This document shows, piece by piece, positions 5,501 to 46,708 of a stretch of DNA of 64,000 nucleotides. The position numbers were made by a program, and so were the translations under genes. Position 1 is the stretch's first letter; each line of letters starts with the position of its first letter. This DNA is from Rhizobium mesoamericanum STM3625 (GTDB lineage Bacteria; Pseudomonadota; Alphaproteobacteria; Rhizobiales; Rhizobiaceae): positions 217,106-281,105 of the forward strand of contig NZ_HF536772.1 of NCBI RefSeq assembly GCF_000312665.1, in the 5' to 3' direction. The notes beneath the pieces were generated by a model, which made no database searches, had not been told where the DNA came from, and saw nothing but the letters and a program-made list of their open reading frames with translations.

Positions 5501-6879
5501 CGACAGCCTATTCGCTCAGACGAAGGCTCCTATTCTGGCTGCTGATCTCGACCGCAATCATCGGCACGGTCGCGCTCGTCGACACCTACCGCGAGGCCGT
5601 GCAGACCTCGAACATTGTATCGGACCGTGTGCTGGCCGGGTCTGCGCTCGCCATCGCTGAACGCGTCGTCGTTGCGGAAGACGGCACACTCGAGGTCGAC
5701 ATCCCCTACGTAGCGCTGGAGATGCTGACCTCCGCCGCGCAGGACCGCGTTTTCTATCGCGTCGATGGGCCGCCGGGGAAATTCATCACCGGCTACCAGG
5801 CGCTGCCCGTGCTTGCCGAAACGGTCGGCGATACTGCAGCATTTGCCGACGATACTTTTCGCGGTGAGCCGATCCGGGTGGCGACGCTCAAACGGTCTGC
5901 CTCGACGGGCATCCGCTCCGTACCCTTTGCCGTGACCGTCGCGGAAACCACGATTGCCCGCCGCCACTTGGCTCGCGCCATCCTATTTCGCTCGGCACTC
6001 CGCCTTTCCTTCATGATTGCGGGCGCTGCCATTATCGTCTGGATTTCGGTCACCGTCGCGCTGCGCCCGCTCTACAAACTTCGCGACGCGATCGGCGAGC
6101 GCAGTCCCGACGACCTCCATCCGATCGAACAGTCGGTGCCGAGCGAGGTCCAGCCGCTGGTCGACACGGTCAACGGCTTCATGGTGCGTCTGCAATCGGC
6201 TCTCGACGCGCTTCGTAACTTCACCGGCAACGCCAGCCACCAACTGCGCACACCGCTTGCCATCATCCGCACGCAGCTTGCCCTCTCGGGCCGCGCCAAA
6301 ACGCTCGCTGAAGCACAGGGTTCTGCCCTGAAGGGCGACCAGGCCGTTGCACACGCCGAGCGAATTCTCGCGCAATTGCTGCTGATGGCGAAAATCGATG
6401 CGGCAACGGCGAAGGAGGCAATGACCGCCTCTTTGATCGACCTGACGGCCATCGCCCAGGAAATTACCGGGGAGCTCATCCCGGCCGCCGCCGAGGCGGG
6501 CATTGATCTCGGCTTCGAAGGCCACCGCCCCGCCATTGTACGCGCCGAGCCGCTGCTGATCGGCGAGCTGTTGCGCAACCTCGCGGGAAACGCCATCGCC
6601 TACGCTGGCAACGGAGCGGAGGTGACCGTGCGGATAGCCGAAGCGGATGAGACCGTCTGCCTCGAAGTTGAGGACAATGGTCCGGGAATTCCGGCGGAGA
6701 AGCTGGCAGCCGTGCGGCAGCGCTTCGCGCGCGGCAGTGATTCGGGCGCTCAAGGGGCGGGGCTCGGCCTGCCGATCGTTGAAGAGATCGCTTCCCTCTT
6801 TAATGCGGCGCTCGCGCTAGAGCCCGGCATGGACGGAAGAGGCCTCAAAGCCTCGGTGACCTTTGCAAAGGCTTCCTAG
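5497..6879 (+). CDS. tctE: Sensor histidine kinase TctE
   Basis: A membrane-bound sensor kinase of 460 residues that pairs with TctD. Two transmembrane helices (about 10-30 and 167-190) flank a periplasmic sensor domain of the TctE (2CSK_N) type. Then come a HAMP-like linker, the H-box with His248 in [12 protein letters not shown], an N-box ([13 protein letters not shown]), and G-boxes ([11 protein letters not shown] and [12 protein letters not shown]), so the catalytic ATPase is complete. It starts within the tctD stop. The input is likely a carboxylate, directly or through the adjacent binding protein; the latter is inference. Confidence 0.93.
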
Positions 6880-6988
6880 AGGCTTAGCCGGCTTGGCCTT
6901 ACCGCCTTGCATTCTTTCGCTGCATTGCACACACTGCCGCCCGGGAACAGCAATGCCGTCAACGATACGGCAGCGGACAAGGCCATAC

Positions 6989-9900
6989 ATGTCGATCAAA
7001 GCCAGCATCCATCATCTGACGCACTATAAATACGACAAGCCGGTCCGCCTCGGACCGCAGATCATCCGTCTCAAGCCTGCGTCGCACTCGAAGACGCGGG
7101 TGATCAGTCATTCCTTGAAGGTCACCCCGTCCAACCACTTCGTGAACCTGCAGCAGGACCCCTACGGCAACTATCTGGCACGCTACGTCTTCCCGGACCC
7201 GGTCACGGAGTTCAAGATCGAGGTCGATCTCGTTGCCGACATGACGGTCTACAATCCCTTCGATTTCTTCGTCGAGGAGGAAGCGATCAAATGGCCGTTC
7301 GACTATCCCGAGACGCTTCGCGAAGACCTGTCGATCTACATGACGCCAGAGACGCCCGGCCCTCGCCTCAAAGCCTTTCTCGAAACGCTCGACCACTCGC
7401 CGGGCCAGCCAACCGTGGATATGGTGGTCAACCTTAACACGCGCCTGCAGCACCAGATCGGCTACGTCATCCGCATGGAGGCTGGCGTCCAGTCGCCGGA
7501 AGAAACGCTGGAAAACGCCAAGGGCTCCTGCCGTGACACGAGCTGGCTCTTGGTGCAGATCCTTCGGCATCTCGGCCTCGCCGCCCGCTTCGTCTCCGGT
7601 TACCTGATCCAGCTGACACCCGACCTCAAGGCACTCGAAGGCCCCTCGGGAACCGAGGTCGACTTCACCGACCTGCACGCCTGGGCCGAAGTCTATCTGC
7701 CAGGTGCCGGCTGGGTAGGCCTTGATCCTACCTCCGGCCTTCTGACCGGCGAAAGCCATATTCCACTGGCCGCAACGCCGCACTTCAGCAATGCCGCACC
7801 GATCTCCGGTGGTTACTTTGGCGAGGCGAATACCGATTTCGCCTTCGACATGACGGTCACTCGCGTCGCCGAACATCCGCGCATCACCAAGCCCTTCTCC
7901 GATGAGAGCTGGGACGAGTTGAACGCGCTCGGCGAAAAGGTTGATCGCATCCTCGAGGCCGAGGACGTGCGCCTGACCATGGGTGGCGAGCCGACCTTCG
8001 TCTCCATTGACGATTTCCAGTCCGACGAATGGAACACCGCAGCCGTCGGCCCGACGAAACGCGAAAGGGCCGATACGCTGATCCGTCGTCTGCGGGAACG
8101 CTTCGCGCCCAACGGCTTCCTGCATTACGGTCAGGGAAAATGGTATCCCGGCGAAAGCCTGCCACGCTGGACCTTCTCGCTCTACTGGCGCAAGGACGGC
8201 CGGCCGATCTGGTCGAACGACGGCCTCGTGGCAACCGAGGGCCGCGACTATCAGGTGACCGATGAGGAAGCAGGACGCCTGCTGACAGCGATTGCCGGCG
8301 AGCTCGAGATCCCGCCTGACTACGTCGCCCCGGCCTACGAAGATCCTGCCGAGTGGCTGGTGAAGGAAGCAAACCTGCCCGAGAACGTGGACCCCTCCAA
8401 TTCCAAGCTGAAGGATCCGGAGGAGCGGATGCGCATGGCCCGCGTCTTCGAACGCGGCCTAAACAGGCCGACTGGCTATGTCCTTCCGGTGCAGGCGTGG
8501 AATTCCCGCGCCAACGGCCGCCGCTGGACGAGCGAGAAGTGGTCGACGCGACGCGGCCGCATCTTCCTCGTGCCCGGCGACAGCCCGGTTGGCTACCGCC
8601 TGCCCCTCAATTCGTTAACCTGGATCTCGCCCGCGCAATATCCCTACATCAACCCGATGGATCCGACGGTTCCGCGCAGTGAGCTTCCAGATTACCGGCA
8701 GGACAAGGGGCGGCCGCAGCAGGCCGCCCATTTCCAGCCCTATAGCGGCCAACAGCCGACCGTACCGCAATCGGCGGGGGAGATCGATGGCCATATCAGG
8801 ACGGCGCTCTCGGTTGAGGCCCGCGAGGGTCGTCTCTGCGTCTTCATGCCTCCTACTGTCAGCATCGAGGATTATCTCGACCTGATTGCCTCGACGGAAC
8901 GCGCCGCCGCGGCCCTCAACCTTGCGGTCCATATCGAAGGTTACGCGCCGCCGCAGGACGAGCGCGTCAACGTCATCCGCGTCGCGCCCGATCCCGGCGT
9001 CATCGAGGTCAACATCCATCCGGCATCGAACTGGAAGGACTGCGTCGACATCACCACGGCGATCTACGAGGAAGCCCGCCAGAGCCGGCTCGGCACCGAC
9101 AAGTTCATGATCGACGGTCGTCACACCGGCACGGGCGGCGGCAACCACGTTGTCGTCGGCGGCAGCAATCCGATCAACAGCCCGTTTCTGCGCCGGCCCG
9201 ATCTGCTGAAGAGTCTGGTGCTGCATTGGCAGCGTCATCCCTCGCTCTCCTATCTATTTTCCGGTCTGTTCATCGGTCCAACCAGCCAGGCGCCGCGCAT
9301 CGACGAAGCCCGCCACGACAGCCTTTATGAACTGGAAATCGCGCTGGCCCAGATCCCGGCGCCCGGCCGTGGCGTCGCACCACTGCCGTGGCTTACCGAT
9401 CGTCTGTTCCGCAACCTGCTGATCGACGTCACCGGCAATACCCACCGCGCCGAAATCTGCATCGACAAGCTGTTCTCACCCGACGGCCCGACTGGCCGGC
9501 TCGGGCTCGTCGAATTCCGCGGTTTCGAAATGCCGCCGAATGCGCGCATGTCGCTCGCCCAACAATTGATGGTCCGCGCATTGATCGCCCGTTTCTGGCA
9601 GAACCCCGCCGACGGCAAGTTCGTGCGCTGGGGCACCTCGCTGCACGACCGCTTCATGCTGCCCCATTTTGTCTGGGCCGATTTCCTCGATGTGCTCGGG
9701 GACCTCAAGCGGAACGGCTTCGACATAAGCCCCGACTGGTTCAAGGCACAGCTTGAATTCCGCTTCCCCTTCTGCGGCGAGGTCGAATACGAAGGATCGA
9801 AGCTGGAGCTGCGACAGGCGCTGGAACCATGGCACGTCATGGGCGAAGAAGGAGCGATCGGTGGCACCGTGCGCTATGTCGACAGCTCCGTCGAGCGCTT

Positions 9901-10312
9901 GCAGGTGCGGCTGGAGACCAGCAATGCCTCCCGATACACTGTCACCTGCAACGGCCGCACTATGCCGTTGACTCCGACCGGCACCGCAGGCGTCTCGGTT
10001 GCCGGCGTGCGCTTCAAGGCCTGGCAGCCCGCGTCGGGTTTGCACCCGGTTTTGCCGGTCAACACGCCGCTGACCTTCGACATATATGATACATGGTCAA
10101 AGCGTTCGATCGGCGGCTGCATCTATCATGTTGCCCATCCGGGCGGGCGCAACTATGACACCTTCCCGGTCAATGGTAACGAAGCGGAAGCAAGGCGCCT
10201 GGCGCGATTCGAGCCGTGGGGGCACACGGCAGGTGCATTCATTCCGCGTGCGGAGACGGCTTCATCGGAATTCCCGCTGACCCTGGATCTTCGGCGACCG
10301 GTGGGAATTTAG
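6989..10312 (+). CDS. Transglutaminase-like / DUF2126 putative amidoligase fusion (1107 aa)
   Basis: A large two-part enzyme. Residues 1-300 form a bacterial transglutaminase-like peptidase module with an N-terminal beta region and a complete triad: Cys181 (GSCRDTSW), His230 ([10 protein letters not shown]) and Asp246 (GLDPTSG). From about residue 320 the DUF2126 region, described in Pfam as a putative amidoligase, begins near [14 protein letters not shown] and continues to the C-terminus. The ATG at 6989 ([16 protein letters not shown]) is the standard family start; the upstream in-frame ATG at 6863 would overlap tctE and adds no recognisable sequence. It is followed after 13 bases by the ATP-grasp gene and then a second transglutaminase gene. 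Families of this kind were predicted by comparative genomics to make or cleave amide (peptide-like) bonds; the substrate is unknown. Probably cytoplasmic, as no signal peptide is seen. Confidence 0.9.
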
Positions 10313-10325
10313 ACGTTAGGGCGAA

Positions 10326-12743
10326 ATGGGCAAAAAACCGACGGCAGGAGTGAGGGAAGAGCCACGTATCCTCACCGGAAACGAGGCAGTGCTCGACTAT
10401 GCTCCGCTGCCTGGAGTCGCCGACGAAATGGTCGACACCAATGGTGCTATCCGTCCGGTCTGGCAGCGTTTCTTCGCACATCTGAGCGGCATGCCCGAGA
10501 AGGATCTGACCGAGCGCTTCGCTCGAGCCGATCGCTATCTCCGCGATGCCGGCGTGTTTTACCGGGCCTATGGCAGCACCGGCAGCGCCGAGCGCTCCTG
10601 GCCGCTCTCGCATGTGCCCGTCCTGATCGATGCGCGAGAATGGGAGACGCTGTCGGCCGGCCTCGAGCAGCGCGCCGACCTGCTGGAGGCGATCGTTGCC
10701 GACATCTACGGCGAAAACCGACTGGTCGAGGACGGCGTCCTGCCACCGGCGCTGATCGCGGCCAATCCCGAGTACCAGCGTCCGCTCGTTGGCGTCACTC
10801 CCGCGGGCGGGCACTACCTGCATTTCTGCGCCTTCGAGATCGGCCGCGGCCCCGATGGCAACTGGTGGGTGCTTGCCGACCGCACCCAGGCTCCGTCAGG
10901 AGCTGGCTTTGCGCTTGAAAACCGCGTCGCGACGACCCGCGCCTTCTCCGACATTTATGCAGAGACGCCGGTTCATCGCCTCGCGTCCTTCTTCGGAGCG
11001 TTTCGCGATGCGCTGCAGGGCATGAAGCACAGCGGCGATGACCGCATCGCCGTCCTGACGCCTGGCCCCGCCAACGAGACCTATTACGAGCACGCCTATA
11101 TCGCCCGCTATCTCGGCTTCATGCTGCTTGAAGGCGAAGATTTGACCGTCGTCAACGGCAAGGTCATGGTCCGCACCGTTTCCGGCCTGAAGCCGATCAC
11201 CGTGCTATGGCGCCGTCTCGATTCCGCCTATGCGGACCCGCTGGAGCTGAACCAGAATTCGCATATCGGCACGCCCGGCCTCGTCGAGGCGTTGCGCGCG
11301 GAAAGCGTGACGATCGTCAACGCCCTCGGTAGCGGCATTATCGAAACACGCGCGCTGCTGGCCTTCATGCCGACCATCTGTCGTCGCCTGTTCGGCGTAG
11401 AACTGAAACTCCCCTCGATTGCGACCTGGTGGTGCGGCCAGAAGGGCGAGCGCGAGCATGTGGCGGAGAACATCGAGAAGATGGTCATCGGCCCGGCCTA
11501 TTCGCGCGCCCCCTTCTTCGACGACAGCGGCGAGTCCGTGCTCGGCTCGAGCCTGCGCGCCACCGCCAAGGATTCGATTGGCGGCTGGTTGAACTCCGAC
11601 GGCGCAAAGCTCGTCGGACAGGAGGTCGTGACGCTTTCGACGACCCCGGCCTGGATCGACGGCAAACTCACGCCTCGCCCGATGTCGCTGCGGGTCTTCG
11701 CCGCCCGCACAGCTAACGGCTGGCAGATCATGCCGGGCGGCTTCGCCCGCATCGGCGGCAGTGATGACGTTTCCGCCATCGCCATGCAATCGGGCGGTTC
11801 CGCCGCCGACGTCTGGATCGTCAGCGACAAGCCGGTGGAACGCCACACGCTGCTGCCGGCCGAAGGCAGTTTCACCCGCAACATGCCGGGCAGCCTGCCG
11901 AGCCGGGCTGCCGACAACCTCTTTTGGCTTGGCCGCTACATCGAACGCGCCGAGGGGGCCCTGCGCATCCTGCGTGCCTGGCACGCCCGCTTTGCCGAGG
12001 CGGCCGATCCGAACCAGCCGCTGCTGGCTGACGTGACGGCCTATCTGGCGGCCGTCGACATCGACACCGGGGACGCGGTGCCGGACACGCTGCTGCGCAA
12101 CATCGACAGCGCCGTCTATTCCGCAAGCAACATCCGTGACCGCTTTTCACCCGACGGCTGGCTGGCTCTTACCGATCTCGCCAAGACTGCACGGCGTTTC
12201 CGCACGACGGTCTCACCGGGCGACGATGCAAGCCATGCGATGACGATCCTGCTGCGCAAGCTCGCGGGCTTTGCAGGTCTCGTGCACGAAAACATGTATC
12301 GCTTCATGGGCTGGCGGTTCCTGTCGCTTGGTCGCCATATCGAACGTGGCCTGCACATGACGCGGCTGCTCGGCCACATGTCGGGACCGGACGCGCCCGA
12401 CGGCGCGCTCGACATGCTGCTCGAGATCGGCGACAGCGTCATGACCCATCGCCGTCGCTATAACGTCAACACTGCCCGCCTGACGGTCACCGATCTTCTG
12501 GCGCTCGACCCGCTCAATCCGCGCTCGATCCTCTTCCAGATGAACGAAATCCATCGCGAGGTGGAGCAGCTGCCGAACGCGCTCGTCAACGGCCAGATGT
12601 CACCTTTCTACCGCGAAGCAATGAGACTCCACGCAGGCCTTGCGGTGATGACGCCGGAGACGATGAGCGTCGACGTCTATCGCCGTCTCGAACGTGAGTT
12701 GGAACAGCTGTCCGACCTTCTTGCCCAAACATATCTCGGATGA
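10326..12743 (+). CDS. Circularly permuted ATP-grasp + alpha-E domain protein (805 aa)
   Basis: The product fuses a circularly permuted ATP-grasp ligase (former DUF404/DUF407, roughly residues 60-500) to the helical alpha-E domain (former DUF403, roughly 515-800, beginning at SRAADNLFWLGRYIERAE). ATP-grasp enzymes couple ATP hydrolysis to carboxylate-amine ligation through an acyl phosphate. The two halves are often separate genes in other bacteria; here they are one polypeptide. The motif LNQNSHIGTPGLVEALRAES in the ATP-grasp half is typical of the permuted family. The stop overlaps the start of the next gene (ATGA), so this is the central gene of a coupled three-gene operon. Confidence 0.9.
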   Translation: MGKKPTAGVREEPRILTGNEAVLDYAPLPGVADEMVDTNGAIRPVWQRFFAHLSGMPEKDLTERFARADRYLRDAGVFYRAYGSTGSAERSWPLSHVPVLIDAREWETLSAGLEQRADLLEAIVADIYGENRLVEDGVLPPALIAANPEYQRPLVGVTPAGGHYLHFCAFEIGRGPDGNWWVLADRTQAPSGAGFALENRVATTRAFSDIYAETPVHRLASFFGAFRDALQGMKHSGDDRIAVLTPGPANETYYEHAYIARYLGFMLLEGEDLTVVNGKVMVRTVSGLKPITVLWRRLDSAYADPLELNQNSHIGTPGLVEALRAESVTIVNALGSGIIETRALLAFMPTICRRLFGVELKLPSIATWWCGQKGEREHVAENIEKMVIGPAYSRAPFFDDSGESVLGSSLRATAKDSIGGWLNSDGAKLVGQEVVTLSTTPAWIDGKLTPRPMSLRVFAARTANGWQIMPGGFARIGGSDDVSAIAMQSGGSAADVWIVSDKPVERHTLLPAEGSFTRNMPGSLPSRAADNLFWLGRYIERAEGALRILRAWHARFAEAADPNQPLLADVTAYLAAVDIDTGDAVPDTLLRNIDSAVYSASNIRDRFSPDGWLALTDLAKTARRFRTTVSPGDDASHAMTILLRKLAGFAGLVHENMYRFMGWRFLSLGRHIERGLHMTRLLGHMSGPDAPDGALDMLLEIGDSVMTHRRRYNVNTARLTVTDLLALDPLNPRSILFQMNEIHREVEQLPNALVNGQMSPFYREAMRLHAGLAVMTPETMSVDVYRRLERELEQLSDLLAQTYLG

Positions 12744-36876: not shown

Positions 36877-38535
36877 ATGAAAGGCCGCTTCCGCTTCTTT
36901 CCGAAGGCATCGATCGGGACTTACCTGATCGCGATGGCAGTGGCGACCGCCTTGCCGATTTTCGCCCTCGTGGCACTTCTGCTGGCACAGCTGGAAGACA
37001 ACCAGCGCTCGATTCTAAAGCGTGAGACGGCCCAGGATGCCACCGCTCTCGCCCGGTCCATCGATCGCCAACTTCAGGATATGGCTACAACTTTAAGGTT
37101 GCTTTCGAACTCGCCAGAATTGGAAAGCAATGACTTCGCGTCTTTTCACGCCCGCACTGAAACAGCTCTGAGGGCAGACACTCTATATGTCATTGCGGTC
37201 GACGAGAATGGGCAGCAACTCCTGAACACTCGCCGGAACTACGGCGAACCCCTCGGAAAGGTTGGCAATCTGCCATCTGTCGAGGCGGCTATCAAATCGG
37301 GCCGCATCGAAGCCTCGGATGTGTTCATGGGGCGAACGAGCGGTCAATTCGTCTACAACGTCACGATGCCGCTGCAGGTTGGTGCTGTCAGGGCATTGAT
37401 TATCACGCAGAATGCCAGTGATCTTGCAAAGCTGGTCACGACAGAAGGATTACCAACCGATTGGTCCGCGGCTGTCATTGATCAAAGTGGTCATGTGGTC
37501 GCCTCCGCCGGCGCCACGAACATCGGCTTCGGCCAACCTTTCAATCCGCAGATTCTGCCTTTTCTGGTCAATTCGAGCGGGGTTTATGAAGACAAGCAGG
37601 TGCTGCCGAAGGCGATGCTGGGCTATGCGCAGATTCCTGGTTGGTCGTGGAAAGCCGTGGTATGGGGACCGGTGGCTACAGCGCAGGCTTCCATCCTGAC
37701 GACATGGCGTTTTCTGATCATCGGTGGCCTCGCGCTGATGCTTCTCGCAATTCTGGCGGCCTATGTCGTGGCGCGCCAGGTCCGCACGACAATCCGCTCG
37801 ATCGCCGATATGGCCATTCGCATGGGCGAAGGCCACATCGTGGCGCCGATCGAGACCAGCGTCATCGAAGCAAACCAGGTTGCAGTCGCACTTTCCAATG
37901 CCTCTTTTGACCGAAGCCAGACCGAAGACCGCCTGCACTTCGTGATGAATGAACTCGTCCACCGCACCAAGAATTTGCTGACCCTGGTGCAGGCGATGAT
38001 GCGCCAGGTTGCCAAGAGTGCTGACAGCGTTGAGGCGTACCAGGCAGCAGTTGCCGACCGCCTTGAGGGCCTCTCCCGCTCGATCGATCTGCTCACCAGC
38101 GAGCAATGGGCGGGCGCATCGCTGCGCCGGGTGATCGACATCCACTTCAAGAGCTTTCCGCAGGCTGCCGAGCAAACCGAGATCTTGGGCAGGGATTTCA
38201 TCTTGAAGCCTGACGTCGTGCAGAATCTCGGCCTCGTGTTGCATGAGCTGGCGACCAATTCGGTAAAGTACGGGGCTCTTTCCGTGCCCCATGGCCGCGT
38301 TCGGCTGAGTTGGAGGGACGCTCAGGATGACGCGCGCAAGGAGCCGCTCGTTCTCTTTACATGGGAAGAACGTGACGGCCCACCCGCCCGTCCCCCCCAG
38401 GGCCCGGGCTTCGGCACGACGATCATCAAGAATCATGCTGCGGCAGCCTTTGGTGGCACTGTCGAAATCGACTTCCGGCCGGAGGGCTTTTACTGGGCGT
38501 TGACGGCCCCTCGCCGCTCCTTGGAGCGTGCATAG
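36877..38535 (+). CDS. HWE-family sensor histidine kinase
   Basis: A 552-residue membrane kinase. An N-terminal helix (about 15-38), a long periplasmic cache-type sensor domain (about 40-275), a second helix (about 285-305) and a HAMP-like linker lead to an HWE-type kinase core. The phospho-acceptor is His362 in ELVHRTKNLLTLVQ. The ATPase shows LVLHELATNSVKYGAL and the C-terminal FGTTIIKNHAAAAFGG; the W-x-E signature is seen in FTWEERDGP. HWE kinases are typical of Rhizobiales. No response regulator is adjacent, so it is an orphan. Confidence 0.9.
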   Translation: MKGRFRFFPKASIGTYLIAMAVATALPIFALVALLLAQLEDNQRSILKRETAQDATALARSIDRQLQDMATTLRLLSNSPELESNDFASFHARTETALRADTLYVIAVDENGQQLLNTRRNYGEPLGKVGNLPSVEAAIKSGRIEASDVFMGRTSGQFVYNVTMPLQVGAVRALIITQNASDLAKLVTTEGLPTDWSAAVIDQSGHVVASAGATNIGFGQPFNPQILPFLVNSSGVYEDKQVLPKAMLGYAQIPGWSWKAVVWGPVATAQASILTTWRFLIIGGLALMLLAILAAYVVARQVRTTIRSIADMAIRMGEGHIVAPIETSVIEANQVAVALSNASFDRSQTEDRLHFVMNELVHRTKNLLTLVQAMMRQVAKSADSVEAYQAAVADRLEGLSRSIDLLTSEQWAGASLRRVIDIHFKSFPQAAEQTEILGRDFILKPDVVQNLGLVLHELATNSVKYGALSVPHGRVRLSWRDAQDDARKEPLVLFTWEERDGPPARPPQGPGFGTTIIKNHAAAAFGGTVEIDFRPEGFYWALTAPRRSLERA

Positions 38536-42452: not shown

Positions 42453-42556
42453 GAATATCGTCTCCCTCAAACTTCCCGACCGATAAAGCAATACGGCCGG
42501 CCGACTGCCGTGATTCTCTCGCTCCCGCGAGGAAATTTCCCTGCAGAGGGATTACA

Positions 42557-42573
42557 CAAAGCTTTGATAAAGC
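42557..42573 (-). promoter_or_regulatory. 17-base motif upstream of oxidase subunit IV (copy 2)
   Basis: CAAAGCTTTGATAAAGC, 105 bases before the subunit IV start, sharing the palindrome CAAAGCTTTG and the trailing AAAGC with the copy before pntAA. Same orientation as copy 1 relative to its gene. Confidence 0.4.
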
Positions 42574-42632
42574 GCAATGCATGAGAATGCCGCAGGCGAG
42601 CCGCATTCTCAGCCAAATTCAAGCGGATGGGC

Positions 42633-43385
42633 CTATAGCGGAAGGTCAGTTCCGAGATCGCCTTCAGCCATGAAACGTGCAGTCGGCACGATGGTGAGCG
42701 GCGGCAGCGTGTCATTGGGAATACGCGAAAACATCATGCGCTGTTCGCTGGCGCTGGAGATGAAGAAGGGATAGCGCGTCAGGAGCTTTCGCCCCACATC
42801 GATGACATTGGTGGCCATTAGTGTCAGATCGAAGCCGTAAGTCTCGGTCATGCGGCTCGCGACGACGGTATCGGCATAGAAGACGCGCTTGTAGAAGGCT
42901 GCATGCGCCGGGCGCACATGCTGCATCACACGGTCGGCCCGAAAATGCGCCGCGGCGACGATGTTCGGACGCAGCGTCAGATAAGGGATCCACGGCATTT
43001 CCGTGCTGAGTTCCGGGTCTGCGGCAAAACGCGCCGGGTCGATCAGGCTGAGTCCGGCGTCCAGAAAGGCGTCCATTTCGGCCGGAAAAATACCGCCCGA
43101 TTGTGAGACACGATGGTTGGGCGTGACGTGATGGATACGGATCGTGCTGACGAGCTGTTCATAATAGTACAGTCCGAAAACGTAGGCCTGACTGTCGAAA
43201 TCGGCATCGTCGATCATGCTTTTGGCGGCGACCGGAAGCACCTCACGGGCCTTGTAGGCCTTGTAGCGCAGGCGCTCCACCTCTTCCATATCTTCGCCGC
43301 TTTCGACGCGGCGGTATTCGACGTGGTTCATTATTTCGAGAAGTTTGCTGCTAAAATCACTCGTCTTTAAAAGGTTGTCTGCCAT
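42633..43385 (-). CDS. LuxI/FeeM-like N-acyltransferase
   Basis: A 250-residue protein of the acyl-homoserine-lactone synthase / N-acyl amino acid synthase fold. The N-terminal third keeps the family pattern: RLRYKAYKAR (Arg and aromatic positions), then DDADFDSQAYVFGLYY, where the two Asp match the LuxI substrate-site acids, and STIRIHHV, matching the conserved Arg. The second half (STEMPWIPYLTLRPNIVAAA) fits the FeeM group better than classical LuxI. It should condense an acyl chain from acyl-ACP with an amino acid or related amine; product unknown. No luxR gene is adjacent. A GGDEF-EAL gene lies upstream on the same strand and a CtrA-type site precedes the start. Confidence 0.75.
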   Translation of the reverse strand: MADNLLKTSDFSSKLLEIMNHVEYRRVESGEDMEEVERLRYKAYKAREVLPVAAKSMIDDADFDSQAYVFGLYYYEQLVSTIRIHHVTPNHRVSQSGGIFPAEMDAFLDAGLSLIDPARFAADPELSTEMPWIPYLTLRPNIVAAAHFRADRVMQHVRPAHAAFYKRVFYADTVVASRMTETYGFDLTLMATNVIDVGRKLLTRYPFFISSASEQRMMFSRIPNDTLPPLTIVPTARFMAEGDLGTDLPL

Positions 43386-43403
43386 AGTTACTCGGTCCGT
43401 CTG

Positions 43404-43418
43404 TTAACGAAGCATTAA
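43404..43418. promoter_or_regulatory. Perfect CtrA-type box TTAA-N7-TTAA
   Basis: TTAA (43404-43407), seven bases, TTAA (43415-43418) exactly matches the alphaproteobacterial CtrA consensus spacing. It lies 19-33 bases upstream of the LuxI/FeeM-like start, where a bound protein would block or activate transcription depending on the start site. Chance occurrence is less likely in a GC-rich genome, but this intergenic patch is AT-rich. Confidence 0.5.
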
Positions 43419-43535
43419 TCATATGGAACAGACGGAAGGGCAAGAACGGTAGGAGAATTTGCATTATATTTGAATTATTAAGGTTAACGGCGTGCCGTTG
43501 CGCGAAGCGTTCTTCCCCTGCAAAAGCAGGCGAGC

Positions 43536-45839
43536 TCAGGCAACTTTCGGGCGACGACGTGGTGCCACGCGGCGGCTGAGGCTTTGCGAGAGCATGGCGA
43601 TGTTCTGCGCCGGAACTGCCGGTGAGAAGACATAGCCCTGGACCAGATCGGTGGCGCGATACTTGTTGAGTAGGGCCAGTTGCTCGGTTGTCTCGACACC
43701 CTCAGTAACGATCTTGAGCCCGAGTTCGCGCGCCAGGTTGACTGTGCCGCGCAGCAGCTTGAGCCGGCGCCCATCCTCGACGATATTGCGTAGGAAGGAG
43801 CGGTCAATCTTGACGATATCCAGCGGCAATGTGTCGAGATAGCTGAGGCTGGAGAAGCCGGTGCCGAAGTCGTCGATCGCAATCGTGATTCCGCGCGCTC
43901 TGAGTTCGGCGAGAATCGCGCGCACTGCGGCCGGCTCGTCGATCAGGCAGCTTTCCGTGATTTCCAGATGCAGTCGGGCTGGTTCTAGTCTCGATGCCTC
44001 GAGCGCTTCGGAAACGACCGCGAGAATATCCGCGTCACGCAGATCGCGTGCCGACAGGTTGACCGAAACGGCGATGTGATCCGGCCAGTTCATGCAGTCC
44101 TGGCATGCCTTCATGAGAATGAAGCGCGTGATTTCGGAGATAGTGCCCATCTCTTCGGCAAGGCGAATGAAGACATCGGGCGGGATTGCGCCCTTCTCGG
44201 GATGAACCCAGCGCGCCAGCGCCTCGGCGCATTCGATGCGCGTTCCATCGGCCTTGAACATCGGTTGGTAGGCGATACTGAGGCCCTGGTTGCCGATCGC
44301 TTCGCGCAGATCCGCCTTGAGCTTCTGCTGTTCTATATAGCGACCGTCCATCTCGCGTTCGAAGCCGGCAATGCCGCCGCGCTGTTTCGACTTGCTCTCG
44401 AACAGCGCGAGATCAGCCTTGATGCTCCATTCCTCCATCGCGAAGGCATCGCTTTCAAGGATCGCAAAGCCAGCACTCAGCGAAATCAGGAAGGTAACCT
44501 CATCGGCCTCGTAATTGCCCTGAATGCTCTCGTGGAAGCGGCGAATCTCCGCATCAAGCGCGGCCGTGTCCTTCGCATGCGGGAAGAAGAGGATGAACTG
44601 GTCGCCCATCAGACGACCGACAATGGCCTTGCCCGCCTGCTTGGAGATGCGACTTGCGATGGCACACAGCAACCGGTCGCCGGTGATGTGGCCACGCATG
44701 TCGTTGACGTGCTTGAACTCGTCGATATCGAGAACCATGAAAGCGACGGGACCACGCTTCTTCGGATGCTTGGCCAGATAGTCCTGCACGAGATGGCTGA
44801 AGTATTCGCGGTTTGGCAGACCGGTCAGCGCATCGAAGCGAACCATGTGGAGGATCTTTTGCTCGGCCTTTACGCGGCTCGACACATCTTCGAAAATTAG
44901 GACGGCGCCCCCATCGGCGCGGCGGCTTGCCGAAAACTCCAGTGAGAGATCCTCTGGAAAATGGATCAGCATGCGCGAAAGCATGCCCTCGGCGACATGC
45001 GTCATTTGCCGCAAGATCAGCTCCGGCTGCGTCGAATCCATAAAACTGTAGCGCGCGCCGTAGCGCAGCACCGCGCCAAGATCGCGTTCCTTCAGCCGCT
45101 CCGGATCGCCAATTTTCAGAAGATCGCACGCCTTGCGGTTGATGACCTGGATGCGGTTGTCCGGATCGACCATGACTAGGCCGTGTGGCATGTTGTTGAG
45201 CGCGGTATCGAAACGGTCGGCGATTATCGAGATCTGGCGATGCGCAATGACGTTCTCGTACAGGAACTCGCGCACGCCATTGGCCATGGCTCGTGTCGTC
45301 AGGCCGAACGGAATGAGGAAAGCGGACAGGATGGCGCGATAGAAATCGAGCGCCATCAGGCTGCAGATGATCATCGGCAGACAGCAGGCCAGCGTCTGCA
45401 GGTCAATTGCCTTCTGCGAGCCGTAGTTTCGGCCGACAACGGAGACCATCGACGCCATGGTGACCGCGATGCAGGCAAGTTCGGCAAAGGGGTCCTGCAG
45501 GATGAAGATGGCGTAGCCGCTGCCAATGCCGAGGATCGCCGCCGTCGAAGCGGCGCCGATAACGTAGATGGTTTCCCAGTGTTCGATCTGCGCGCGCGAA
45601 AGCGTTTGCTTATCAACCTTGTCGAACATGCGGAAGGTGACCATCCGGCCGGCAAAAACGGTGAGGAAACCAACCGACAGGACGACGTAGAACGGAGAAC
45701 TGGTTTTCAGGGCAACTGCGAGGAATGCAACCACATGCACGACGACACCCGCAACGAGTGTCATTCGATTCCCGAAGAGGGAACTGACAAACGACAGATA
45801 GACGTCGGTAGGGACCCTGTTCGGGTTATGTGGCTTCAT
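43536..45839 (-). CDS. Membrane GGDEF-EAL cyclic-di-GMP protein
   Basis: A 767-residue protein with five to six N-terminal transmembrane helices (about 20-185), a PAS-like domain (about 220-330), then GGDEF and EAL domains. The GGDEF active loop is degenerate (RLMGDQFILFF), so diguanylate cyclase activity is doubtful. The EAL domain looks intact: AEALARWVHPEKG, VSVNLSARDL, LEITESCL, IDDFGTGFSSL, VKIDRSF and TEGVET. It probably hydrolyses c-di-GMP. The start at 45839 (MKPHNPNRV) has AGGGAAAG upstream. The 329 bases beyond it (45840-46168) separate it from divergent dctQ. Confidence 0.92.
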   Translation of the reverse strand: MKPHNPNRVPTDVYLSFVSSLFGNRMTLVAGVVVHVVAFLAVALKTSSPFYVVLSVGFLTVFAGRMVTFRMFDKVDKQTLSRAQIEHWETIYVIGAASTAAILGIGSGYAIFILQDPFAELACIAVTMASMVSVVGRNYGSQKAIDLQTLACCLPMIICSLMALDFYRAILSAFLIPFGLTTRAMANGVREFLYENVIAHRQISIIADRFDTALNNMPHGLVMVDPDNRIQVINRKACDLLKIGDPERLKERDLGAVLRYGARYSFMDSTQPELILRQMTHVAEGMLSRMLIHFPEDLSLEFSASRRADGGAVLIFEDVSSRVKAEQKILHMVRFDALTGLPNREYFSHLVQDYLAKHPKKRGPVAFMVLDIDEFKHVNDMRGHITGDRLLCAIASRISKQAGKAIVGRLMGDQFILFFPHAKDTAALDAEIRRFHESIQGNYEADEVTFLISLSAGFAILESDAFAMEEWSIKADLALFESKSKQRGGIAGFEREMDGRYIEQQKLKADLREAIGNQGLSIAYQPMFKADGTRIECAEALARWVHPEKGAIPPDVFIRLAEEMGTISEITRFILMKACQDCMNWPDHIAVSVNLSARDLRDADILAVVSEALEASRLEPARLHLEITESCLIDEPAAVRAILAELRARGITIAIDDFGTGFSSLSYLDTLPLDIVKIDRSFLRNIVEDGRRLKLLRGTVNLARELGLKIVTEGVETTEQLALLNKYRATDLVQGYVFSPAVPAQNIAMLSQSLSRRVAPRRRPKVA

Positions 45840-46054
45840 CCATACTTTCCCTGTGCGGCGAAACCTTAACCGCAACCCTTTAAAAATTGATTTCGGGTAA
45901 TCGATACATTTTGTCGAATTTTTCGAAACCCTGGGGTGAATTTTAATATTTGCAATGACTTATGCAGCCATCCGGTGAAGATTCCGCAGAAACGAGCCTA
46001 TCCTGAGGTTGTCTGACAACGCTGATATTGACGCCCAGCGTGTCTGATGCGGGG

Positions 46055-46064
46055 GTCATACGAC
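46055..46064. promoter_or_regulatory. GntR-type near-palindrome upstream of dctQ
   Basis: GTCATACGAC is an 8/10 palindrome about 105 bases before dctQ and resembles FCD-class GntR operators. No GntR gene is in the window. This lies in the 329-base region 45840-46168, which otherwise shows only AT-rich promoter-like sequence. Confidence 0.3.
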
Positions 46065-46168
46065 TATATTCCAACACGCCCCGTTTCATCTTTCAATTTT
46101 AAAAACGGTGGTCTAAACCGGTGGAAAGATAAAGCGAGCCACAAAGGCGCAATAATAGGGGGAACGGC

Positions 46169-46708
46169 ATGCCGGCTTTGCTGACCGTCAGCCGGCTGAT
46201 CGATGCGGTCAGCCAATTCATGGGAAAATTGTCCGAATATATGGTGCTGTTCTGCTGCCTGATCAGCGCCGCCAATGCTCTAATCCGCTACTCATTCAAC
46301 TATAGCTCCAACGGATGGCTCGAGATCCAATGGTATCTCTTCGCCTTCATCGTTGTGCTGGGCGCGGCTCACACTCTGCGCATGAACGAGCATGTACGCG
46401 TGGACCTGATTTATGGCGCGGTCTCCGAAAAGGTAAAGATCTGGATCGACGTCATCGGGCTTATCGTTTTCCTGATCCCGGCCTGCATTTTCCTAACCTG
46501 GCTCTGCTGGCCGTTCTTCCTATCCTCCTACCTGCAGCATGAAGTCTCGGCCAATGCCGGCGGTCTGATTCGCTGGCCTGTCAAGCTCGTTCTGTTCCTC
46601 GGCTTCGGGCTGCTGACCCTTCAGGGCGTCTCGGAGTTGATCAAGCGGATCGCGGCCCTCACCGGCTACATCCAGATCGACACGACGTACGAAAAGCCGC
46701 TGCAGTAA
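46169..46708 (+). CDS. dctQ: TRAP transporter small permease DctQ
   Basis: The 179-residue small membrane subunit of a TRAP secondary transporter, with four hydrophobic helices and the DctQ pattern (GWLEIQWYLFAFIVVLGAAH; NEHVRVDLIYG). A GGGGGAA sequence precedes the ATG. It is followed by dctM, and the matching binding protein is encoded convergently just beyond. Confidence 0.93.
   Translation: MPALLTVSRLIDAVSQFMGKLSEYMVLFCCLISAANALIRYSFNYSSNGWLEIQWYLFAFIVVLGAAHTLRMNEHVRVDLIYGAVSEKVKIWIDVIGLIVFLIPACIFLTWLCWPFFLSSYLQHEVSANAGGLIRWPVKLVLFLGFGLLTLQGVSELIKRIAALTGYIQIDTTYEKPLQ

Follow-up and report, generated by a model that had tools for sequence, protein, structure and literature searches.

The window analysed in our work, by which we mean the whole stretch of 64,000 nucleotides from Rhizobium mesoamericanum STM3625, carries on its minus strand a gene for a FeeM-like N-acyltransferase preceded by a gene for a membrane-PAS-GGDEF-EAL protein, and the sequence of the enzyme co-varies with that of the hydrophobic N-terminal membrane domain (NTM) of this partner at three evolutionary depths. 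The functional coupling of the enzyme and its partner is well supported, while the product, the ligand and the effect of the system are what we infer. The FeeM family and its fold are already known; the two genes represent a candidate signal-synthase/receptor pair assembled from parts that we have not seen reported together. The features discussed below are located as follows:

42633..43385 (-): FeeM-like N-acyltransferase, 250 aa (ORF; PF21926 FeeM; FeeM fold; residue counts)
43038..43040 (-): codon of Asp116, at the site of FeeM's catalytic Glu (profile alignment; 145 of 149 relatives)
43386..43535 (-): intergenic gap of 150 bases between acyltransferase and partner
43536..45839 (-): partner gene, membrane domain-PAS-GGDEF-EAL (Pfam EAL, GGDEF, PAS_7; same-strand upstream neighbour of the enzyme gene in 147 of the 149 loci examined)
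43581..44333 (-): EAL phosphodiesterase domain, active-site residues intact (residue conservation)
44361..44840 (-): GGDEF domain with the degenerate motif MGDQF (Pfam; motif count)
44841..45209 (-): PAS domain of the partner (PF12860, E 6e-13)
45210..45839 (-): NTM, residues 13-222 (co-varies with the acyltransferase)

The acyltransferase and its partner protein

The reading frame at 42633-43385 is intact, starts with ATG and was upheld with these exact coordinates. Considering that relatives were retrieved from 210 of 297 genomes of the family (E<=0.001) and that dN was well below dS in all nine Rhizobium pairs measured, it constitutes a conserved gene; its best public matches are Rhizobium loci with a protein identity of at most 97%. 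Promoter and terminator scans gave no matches above chance level. The protein matched PF21926 (FeeM) with 133.5 bits (curated cut-off 27; E 7e-39) and nothing else in Pfam at E<=0.1, and NCBIfam holds no family for it. An AlphaFold2 model (pLDDT 75, pTM 0.76; mostly poor past residue 207) retrieved FeeM (2g0b) as the top Foldseek match with an E value of 1.9e-11, followed by the first non-FeeM chain at 1.7e-6. Upon superposition by VIA-align, FeeM reached a Z score of 18.9 (rmsd 2.7 over 183 residues, 18% identity); the next matches were LasI (15.1) and RpaI (15.0), with which ordinary GNATs (<=15.0) tie. A plain GNAT fold, which the preliminary description of this gene had named as the result that would overturn its reading, is thus not what was obtained, since FeeM scores above the ordinary GNATs, although LuxI structures (<=15.1) do not stand out from them. 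Sequence searches against solved structures returned no match when the protein alone or an alignment of near relatives (A1) was used, and reached FeeM (E 0.001) with a more diverse alignment (A4). Within the LuxI/GNAT superfamily the enzyme is thus a member of the FeeM branch and not a LuxI protein, in line with the earlier impression that it was more FeeM-like than LuxI-like, as FeeM is both its sole Pfam match (E<=0.1) and its top fold match.

The Arg/Asp/Arg pattern of the autoinducer-synthase fold that had been noticed in the sequence was retrieved throughout the family, with R40, D59 and R83 present in 149 of 149 relatives and D62 in 148. An alignment of 78 diverse sequences showed R40, R83, D59, R139, H161, Y165, R204 and E214 to be invariant, and the conserved residues further include a D116-P-x-R119 motif, the first position of which is D in 145, N in three and C in one of the 149 relatives. 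In the profile alignment to FeeM (E 0.001) D116 is placed opposite the Glu of 'AEVVQFA'; TofI aligns in the same register, with the Glu of its 'WELSRFA' at this place (E 0.33, by itself not significant). Glu95 of FeeM is described as the proposed active-site residue, and replacement of its counterpart in Nas354 by Ala is described as abolishing the hemolytic and surface-active phenotypes (PMC4897644). Because the change from Glu to Asp is both conserved and conservative, acyltransferase catalysis with Asp116 is likely, as judged from the alignment; owing to the Asp at the place of the catalytic Glu, the protein is not assigned to the type I synthase class. Compared to FeeM (PDB 2G0B), with which it has in common the sequence family, the fold and the likely transfer of an acyl group to an amine, the acyltransferase is 18-20% identical over the fold, possesses approximately 50 additional C-terminal residues, carries Asp for the catalytic Glu in its D-P-x-R motif, and is paired with a c-di-GMP enzyme.

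The reading frame of this partner opens at 45875 (TTG), the ATG at 45839 being the likelier start, and the protein comprises 767-779 aa. A Pfam scan of 74 NTM sequences detected no family in more than two members. The NTM is helical in a predicted model of low overall confidence, and a fold search with a membrane-plus-PAS model (pLDDT 67.8, pTM 0.51) returned mostly PAS-domain chains, for which reason no statement is made on its fold. Of 144 partner sequences, 75 have Q, 61 have E and eight have H as the fourth residue of the GGDEF motif, and the GGDEF domain encoded in the window is, from its motif, probably not an active cyclase. E551, N606, E641, D668, D669, K689, D691, E725 and Q746 of the EAL domain, which we take to be its catalytic residues, are present in all 144 sequences, including that of the window. 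Since the EAL residues are intact whereas the fourth GGDEF position varies, the partner is best read as a phosphodiesterase: by its residues it probably is a c-di-GMP phosphodiesterase, and in some lineages perhaps a bifunctional enzyme.

Conservation of the gene pair

The acyltransferase had been described as lacking a LuxR partner; what that description overlooked is a conserved association with the membrane-PAS-GGDEF-EAL gene upstream on the same strand. This arrangement was seen in all 80 near loci, which are the best 80 of 84 confirmed ones (mostly Rhizobium, with some Rhizobiales, one Agrobacterium and one Rhizobiaceae assembly). It was likewise seen in 39 of the 40 family loci viewed, where the identity of the enzyme goes down to 35%, and, at identities of 27-41%, in 28 of the 29 loci viewed in the other families of the order. 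The loci viewed were picked for identity spread from 210 family matches and from 42 other-family matches, the latter being the 53 order matches minus 11 of the own family. The family exception (L132) is cut by a contig end, its sensor domain being located on another contig of the same genome; the exception in the order (L217) has no sensor nearby, and no NTM match is present in its genome. All 142 measured pairs are encoded on one strand with a median gap of 159 bases, three of them having 1.3-1.9 kb in between. The other neighbours in the window, pntAB and TRAP transporter genes, are absent from many pair loci. The window further holds, near the pnt genes, an HWE-type histidine kinase (36877-38535) with a weak Cache match below the Pfam cut-off, and, at 6863-12743, an amidoligase-like DUF2126 protein with transglutaminase domains adjoining a circularly permuted ATP-grasp/alpha-E protein, the two possibly forming a cluster for peptide ligation.

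Other arrangements were met on plasmids and at greater distances. Eight of the ten plasmid records with a match were viewed (H5 and H10 being left out); the two genes are convergent on plasmids of Rhizobium tumorigenes and R. rhododendri, and have the usual order on a Shinella plasmid (L262). Among nine further class-level PF21926 loci, mostly weak matches, a single one (L187, from another order) has a GGDEF-EAL neighbour: at 6818-10535 a FeeM gene is followed by a methyltransferase-like gene, with weak PEMT/ICMT similarity below Pfam cut-offs, and then by a PAS-GGDEF-EAL gene whose product does not match the NTM profile in its N-terminal part. This gene order suggests that the acyl product may be methylated in some lineages. 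On plasmid pRlX5 of R. leguminosarum TP16, whose record has three match places, a FeeM-like gene (L265, 6022-6747; 52% identical) has no GGDEF-EAL gene within 6 kb. Because GGDEF-EAL is missing from this locus and from eight of the nine class-level loci, the pairing is regarded as characteristic of the present branch within its order and not of FeeM relatives in general. The L265 gene adjoins one for an HSP90-like ATPase-domain protein, near a transposase-like gene.

In roseobacters, FeeM-family genes were observed in other company. All three Sulfitobacter plasmid loci viewed (L263 5485-8278, L266 3194-6250 and L267 3194-6253) have the gene between methyltransferase and sensor histidine kinase genes, and a Loktanella plasmid (L264 2718-6151) encodes a histidine kinase, an ICMT/PEMT-like methyltransferase, FeeM and a methyltransferase. 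These loci are candidates for the synthesis of N-acyl amino acid methyl esters, the synthase of which is said in PMC11580390 to be unknown.

The enzyme and the NTM also occur together on a genome scale. Among the 297 family genomes, 209 carry both, 28 the NTM only, one the enzyme only and 59 neither, the sole enzyme-only genome (G043) being a 76% complete assembly. The NTM match has an E value below 1e-30 in nine of the 28 NTM-only genomes and is weaker in the other 19, where it may represent a paralogue. No FeeM-like ORF was found in 16 NTM-only loci (L224, L225, L247-L260), L255 being unjudgeable as it ends 249 bases past the sensor. At L224 (genus g47) the acyltransferase has been lost cleanly: the small gene and pntA, between which and the sensor it lies in the window, come directly after the sensor. 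The gene is likewise missing from L225, of the same genus, and L118, from a species of that genus, retains it. On the basis of the NTM-only genomes, nine with strong and 19 with weak matches, the sensor can act without the enzyme. Faster NTM evolution in sensor-only genomes was considered as support and set aside: it is seen in some of them (L250, L253, L259, L251), is weak in L224 and L225 and absent or nearly absent in L248 and L249, and PAS and GGDEF often rise along with it.

Co-variation and exchange of enzyme and membrane domain

Co-variation was determined for 79 of the 80 near loci (L092, at a contig end, being left out), for 35 of the 40 family loci (L132 being cut, and the full sensor ORF not being recovered from L127, L128, L137 and L155 though tblastn aligns it) and for 28 of the 29 order loci (L217 having no sensor). 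The raw distances of the enzyme in the near set correlate with those of every domain of the partner (NTM 0.97, EAL 0.93, PAS 0.92, GGDEF 0.91); upon removal of the contribution of three flanking genes the correlation remains at 0.88 for the NTM and falls to 0.57 for PAS, 0.57 for EAL and 0.49 for GGDEF. When the other domains are taken into account together with the flanks, the value for the NTM is 0.82, and those for EAL, GGDEF and PAS range from -0.06 to 0.26 in the 79 loci and from -0.04 to 0.05 in a core of 64 Rhizobium loci from which the more distant near loci were omitted. Given the other domains, the enzyme and NTM correlate at 0.68 in the 35 family loci (other domains -0.10 to 0.22), at 0.67 in the 28 order loci (-0.11 to 0.26) and at 0.56 when family and order are pooled (0.05 to 0.17). 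The enzyme and the NTM thus co-vary at three evolutionary depths. When taxa were bootstrapped in two sets, the NTM was the highest correlate of the enzyme in all 300 replicates of either set. The NTM is encoded approximately 1.8 kb from the enzyme gene and the EAL domain adjacent to it, yet co-variation is greater with the NTM.

Tree comparisons gave the same ranking. When the enzyme alignment was placed on the domain trees, the loss of lnL in the family was 140 for the NTM tree versus 553-595 for those of the other domains, and in the core 231 for the NTM, 937 for EAL, 1165 for PAS, 1438 for GGDEF and 1853-2188 for flanking genes. The SH test keeps the NTM tree in the core, and the AU test rejects all domain trees, though with too few replicates according to the program's own warning. 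Along the sensor, as scanned in windows (L093 omitted because of missing distances), co-variation peaks at residues 38-187, declines through PAS and rises a second time over the final 17 residues, which are encoded next to the enzyme gene. Coarse clustering fails to separate the NTM from EAL, because the adjusted Rand index with the enzyme clusters is 0.893 for both.

Close Rhizobium relatives differ in the type of enzyme and NTM they carry. From approximately 42500 to 46200, the nucleotide identity of L072, L075, L079 and L083 to the window falls to 59-86%, most flanking bins being at 80-94%. The enzymes of L079 and L083 are 84.9 and 88.7% identical to that of L072, and 73.9 and 76.7% identical to those of L037 and L041; their NTMs are likewise L072-like (81.1 and 84.8 versus 73.0 and 72.4), and EAL gives no such likeness (80.8 and 81.6 versus 82.4 and 83.8). 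L043 is nearest to L087 in its flanks (dS 0.22-0.24), but its enzyme and NTM are of the type of L037. In nine pairs chosen by us, dN between types amounts to 0.18-0.20 for the NTM, 0.15-0.19 for the enzyme and 0.02-0.09 for PAS, GGDEF and EAL, and within types to 0.04-0.09 for the NTM and 0.03-0.05 for the enzyme. At the amino acid level, therefore, the change of type in these nine pairs concerns only the enzyme and the NTM, and both together. As most pairs show a raised dS over the entire unit (L087-L037 not clearly so, and L083-L072 only in some parts), the two genes seem to be exchanged as a whole, and the unit appears to have been recombined among close relatives (L072, L075, L079, L083, L043) with edges near its ends; by our estimate the independent switches are few, two to four, and dS within the unit is often near saturation. 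Among flank-close pairs, those of different enzyme type diverge 3.3 times more in the NTM than those of the same type, and 1.9 to 2.4 times more in the other domains; pairs that have one enzyme type in common but distant flanks are nevertheless not alike in the NTM (0.151).

A proposed signal pair and its alternatives

We consider it somewhat probable that an N-acyl signal is produced by the enzyme and sensed by the membrane domain of its neighbour, and that c-di-GMP is set accordingly. The enzyme, as a FeeM-type N-acyltransferase, would take a fatty acyl chain from what we infer to be acyl-ACP or acyl-CoA and join it to an amine, probably an amino acid; the product would be an amphiphilic signal and no homoserine lactone. 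This product, or the enzyme making it, would be sensed by the membrane domain of the partner, and the sensed state would pass via PAS to EAL, which would hydrolyse c-di-GMP and so set attachment, motility or exopolysaccharide; c-di-GMP would fall or rise in response, both the direction and the physiological output being conjectural. With synthase and sensor domain co-adapted, the pair would exist in Rhizobium as several specificity types. As the two genes form a conserved unit, a signal that acts on c-di-GMP is favoured over a lipid enzyme working on its own. More tentatively, the pair may possibly belong to a private-language system of the Hyphomicrobiales, in which an N-acyl signal would be read by the membrane domain of the adjacent phosphodiesterase, matching types of synthase and sensor, or pherotypes, would be swapped between close Rhizobium relatives, sensor-only genomes would be 'listeners', and in roseobacters the same branch of the enzyme, joined by methyltransferases, would speak to histidine kinases.

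That the acyltransferase is instead an unorthodox LuxI-type AHL synthase served by a LuxR protein encoded elsewhere is a very remote prospect, even though it has the superfamily and the R/D/D/R positions in common with LuxI, has LasI and RpaI as its next fold matches (at a Z score that ordinary GNATs equal) and resides in a genome with LuxR-type ligand domains (PF03472) at eight places. This genome (6.46 Mb in seven contigs, the window being on contig C1) encodes one acyltransferase of the FeeM kind, as judged from one PF21926 match over the cut-off and one A4 match, and already has LuxI genes of its own: PF00765 gives three full-length matches and a partial one, all on other contigs and none being the acyltransferase, which itself has no PF00765 match at E<=0.1, and each of the three LuxI genes has a LuxR-type gene within approximately 10 kb. 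None of the eight PF03472 places is inside the window, and the nearest on the same contig is approximately 440 kb away, so that the earlier remark that no luxR gene is in reach holds. In addition, the catalytic Glu is replaced by Asp and followed by Pro. While the superfamily fold and a (here proposed) role as signal synthase are common to both, the acyltransferase thus differs from LuxI AHL synthases in having neither a PF00765 match nor a LuxR neighbour, and its proposed receptor is a membrane c-di-GMP phosphodiesterase. Because the enzyme is FeeM-like rather than LuxI-like by Pfam and fold, an N-acylated product other than an AHL, as the preliminary description had suspected, is the better guess.

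Instead of signalling, the coupling could reflect a direct contact of the two proteins or a common adaptation to the lipids of the membrane, and a physical complex of enzyme and sensor is the main rival to the proposed signal. According to this explanation, which we deem unlikely though worth serious attention, the enzyme is under the control of the membrane PAS-GGDEF-EAL protein, by contact or by local c-di-GMP, and makes no signal but a lipid of the membrane or a surfactant for surface life, and the co-variation marks a binding interface, which it would indeed suit. RpfR is described as binding and inhibiting its synthase RpfF (PMC6361424), and Nas343 and Nas354 as NAS enzymes linked to c-di-GMP through a modelled PilZ-like domain, the Nas354 product being surface-active (PMC4897644). 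Against this, no PilZ domain is matched in the 250-aa protein by Pfam at E<=0.1, the co-varying stretch is a hydrophobic domain, the sensor occurs without the enzyme in up to 28 genomes and the enzyme without the sensor domain in one, and FeeM relatives are also encoded beside a different sensor class, the histidine kinases. We hold it to be improbable that an ordinary GNAT is merely kept beside a GGDEF-EAL gene by inherited order, the co-evolution being only apparent and due to similar rates and to recombination of the whole unit. Adjacent genes can persist together by descent, the unit is exchanged as a block with dS raised relative to the flanks in most pairs, and the cluster agreement is the same for NTM and EAL; however, the flanks turn over while the pair persists, also in convergent and in reversed order, GGDEF diverges nearly as much as the enzyme (mean 0.54 versus 0.56 in the family) yet has a partial correlation of -0.10, and dS in the middle of the unit resembles that at its ends, yet dN there has no type structure.

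Known systems resemble the proposed pair in part. RpfF and RpfR of Burkholderia and Cronobacter, whose genes presumably are immediately adjacent, combine a fatty-acyl signal synthase with a PAS-GGDEF-EAL c-di-GMP protein as a gene pair, as would be the case here if the putative signal role holds. RpfF is a crotonase-type synthase, whereas the enzyme here is of the GNAT/FeeM type and its sensor has a membrane domain in place of the FI domain; the locus thus resembles the RpfF/RpfR type in having a PAS-GGDEF-EAL gene beside a fatty-acyl enzyme gene, and departs from it in that a crotonase synthase and an FI-PAS receptor without a membrane domain are not what is encoded. The receptor is described as reading the fatty-acid signal, also binding the synthase, and affecting c-di-GMP (PMC6361424). 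In ComQXPA of Bacillus a polymorphic signal-making gene has types common within, and not between, communication groups, to which the enzyme and NTM types found here are similar. The membrane half of ComP is the variable part of the ComQXPA sensor. That system employs an isoprenylated peptide and a histidine kinase, in contrast to the N-acyl enzyme and c-di-GMP phosphodiesterase of our pair, and its groups are described as communicating within and not between each other (PMC4408185). The metagenomic Nas343 and Nas354, FeeM-type synthases described as fused to a PilZ-like domain, were the one earlier link found between this enzyme type and c-di-GMP; there a modelled c-di-GMP-binding domain is located on the enzyme, while here c-di-GMP turnover would be performed by a separate protein. 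A search among open-licence papers found none on a pair of a FeeM-type enzyme and a PAS-GGDEF-EAL protein.

In rhizobia and many of their relatives, gene order, co-occurrence and co-variation tie a FeeM-type relative to a protein that probably is a c-di-GMP phosphodiesterase, by which the question of its role becomes testable. If the proposed signal pair is true, it would represent a signal class that bypasses LuxR and feeds a second messenger for attachment and biofilm, and there would be communication groups inside Rhizobium.
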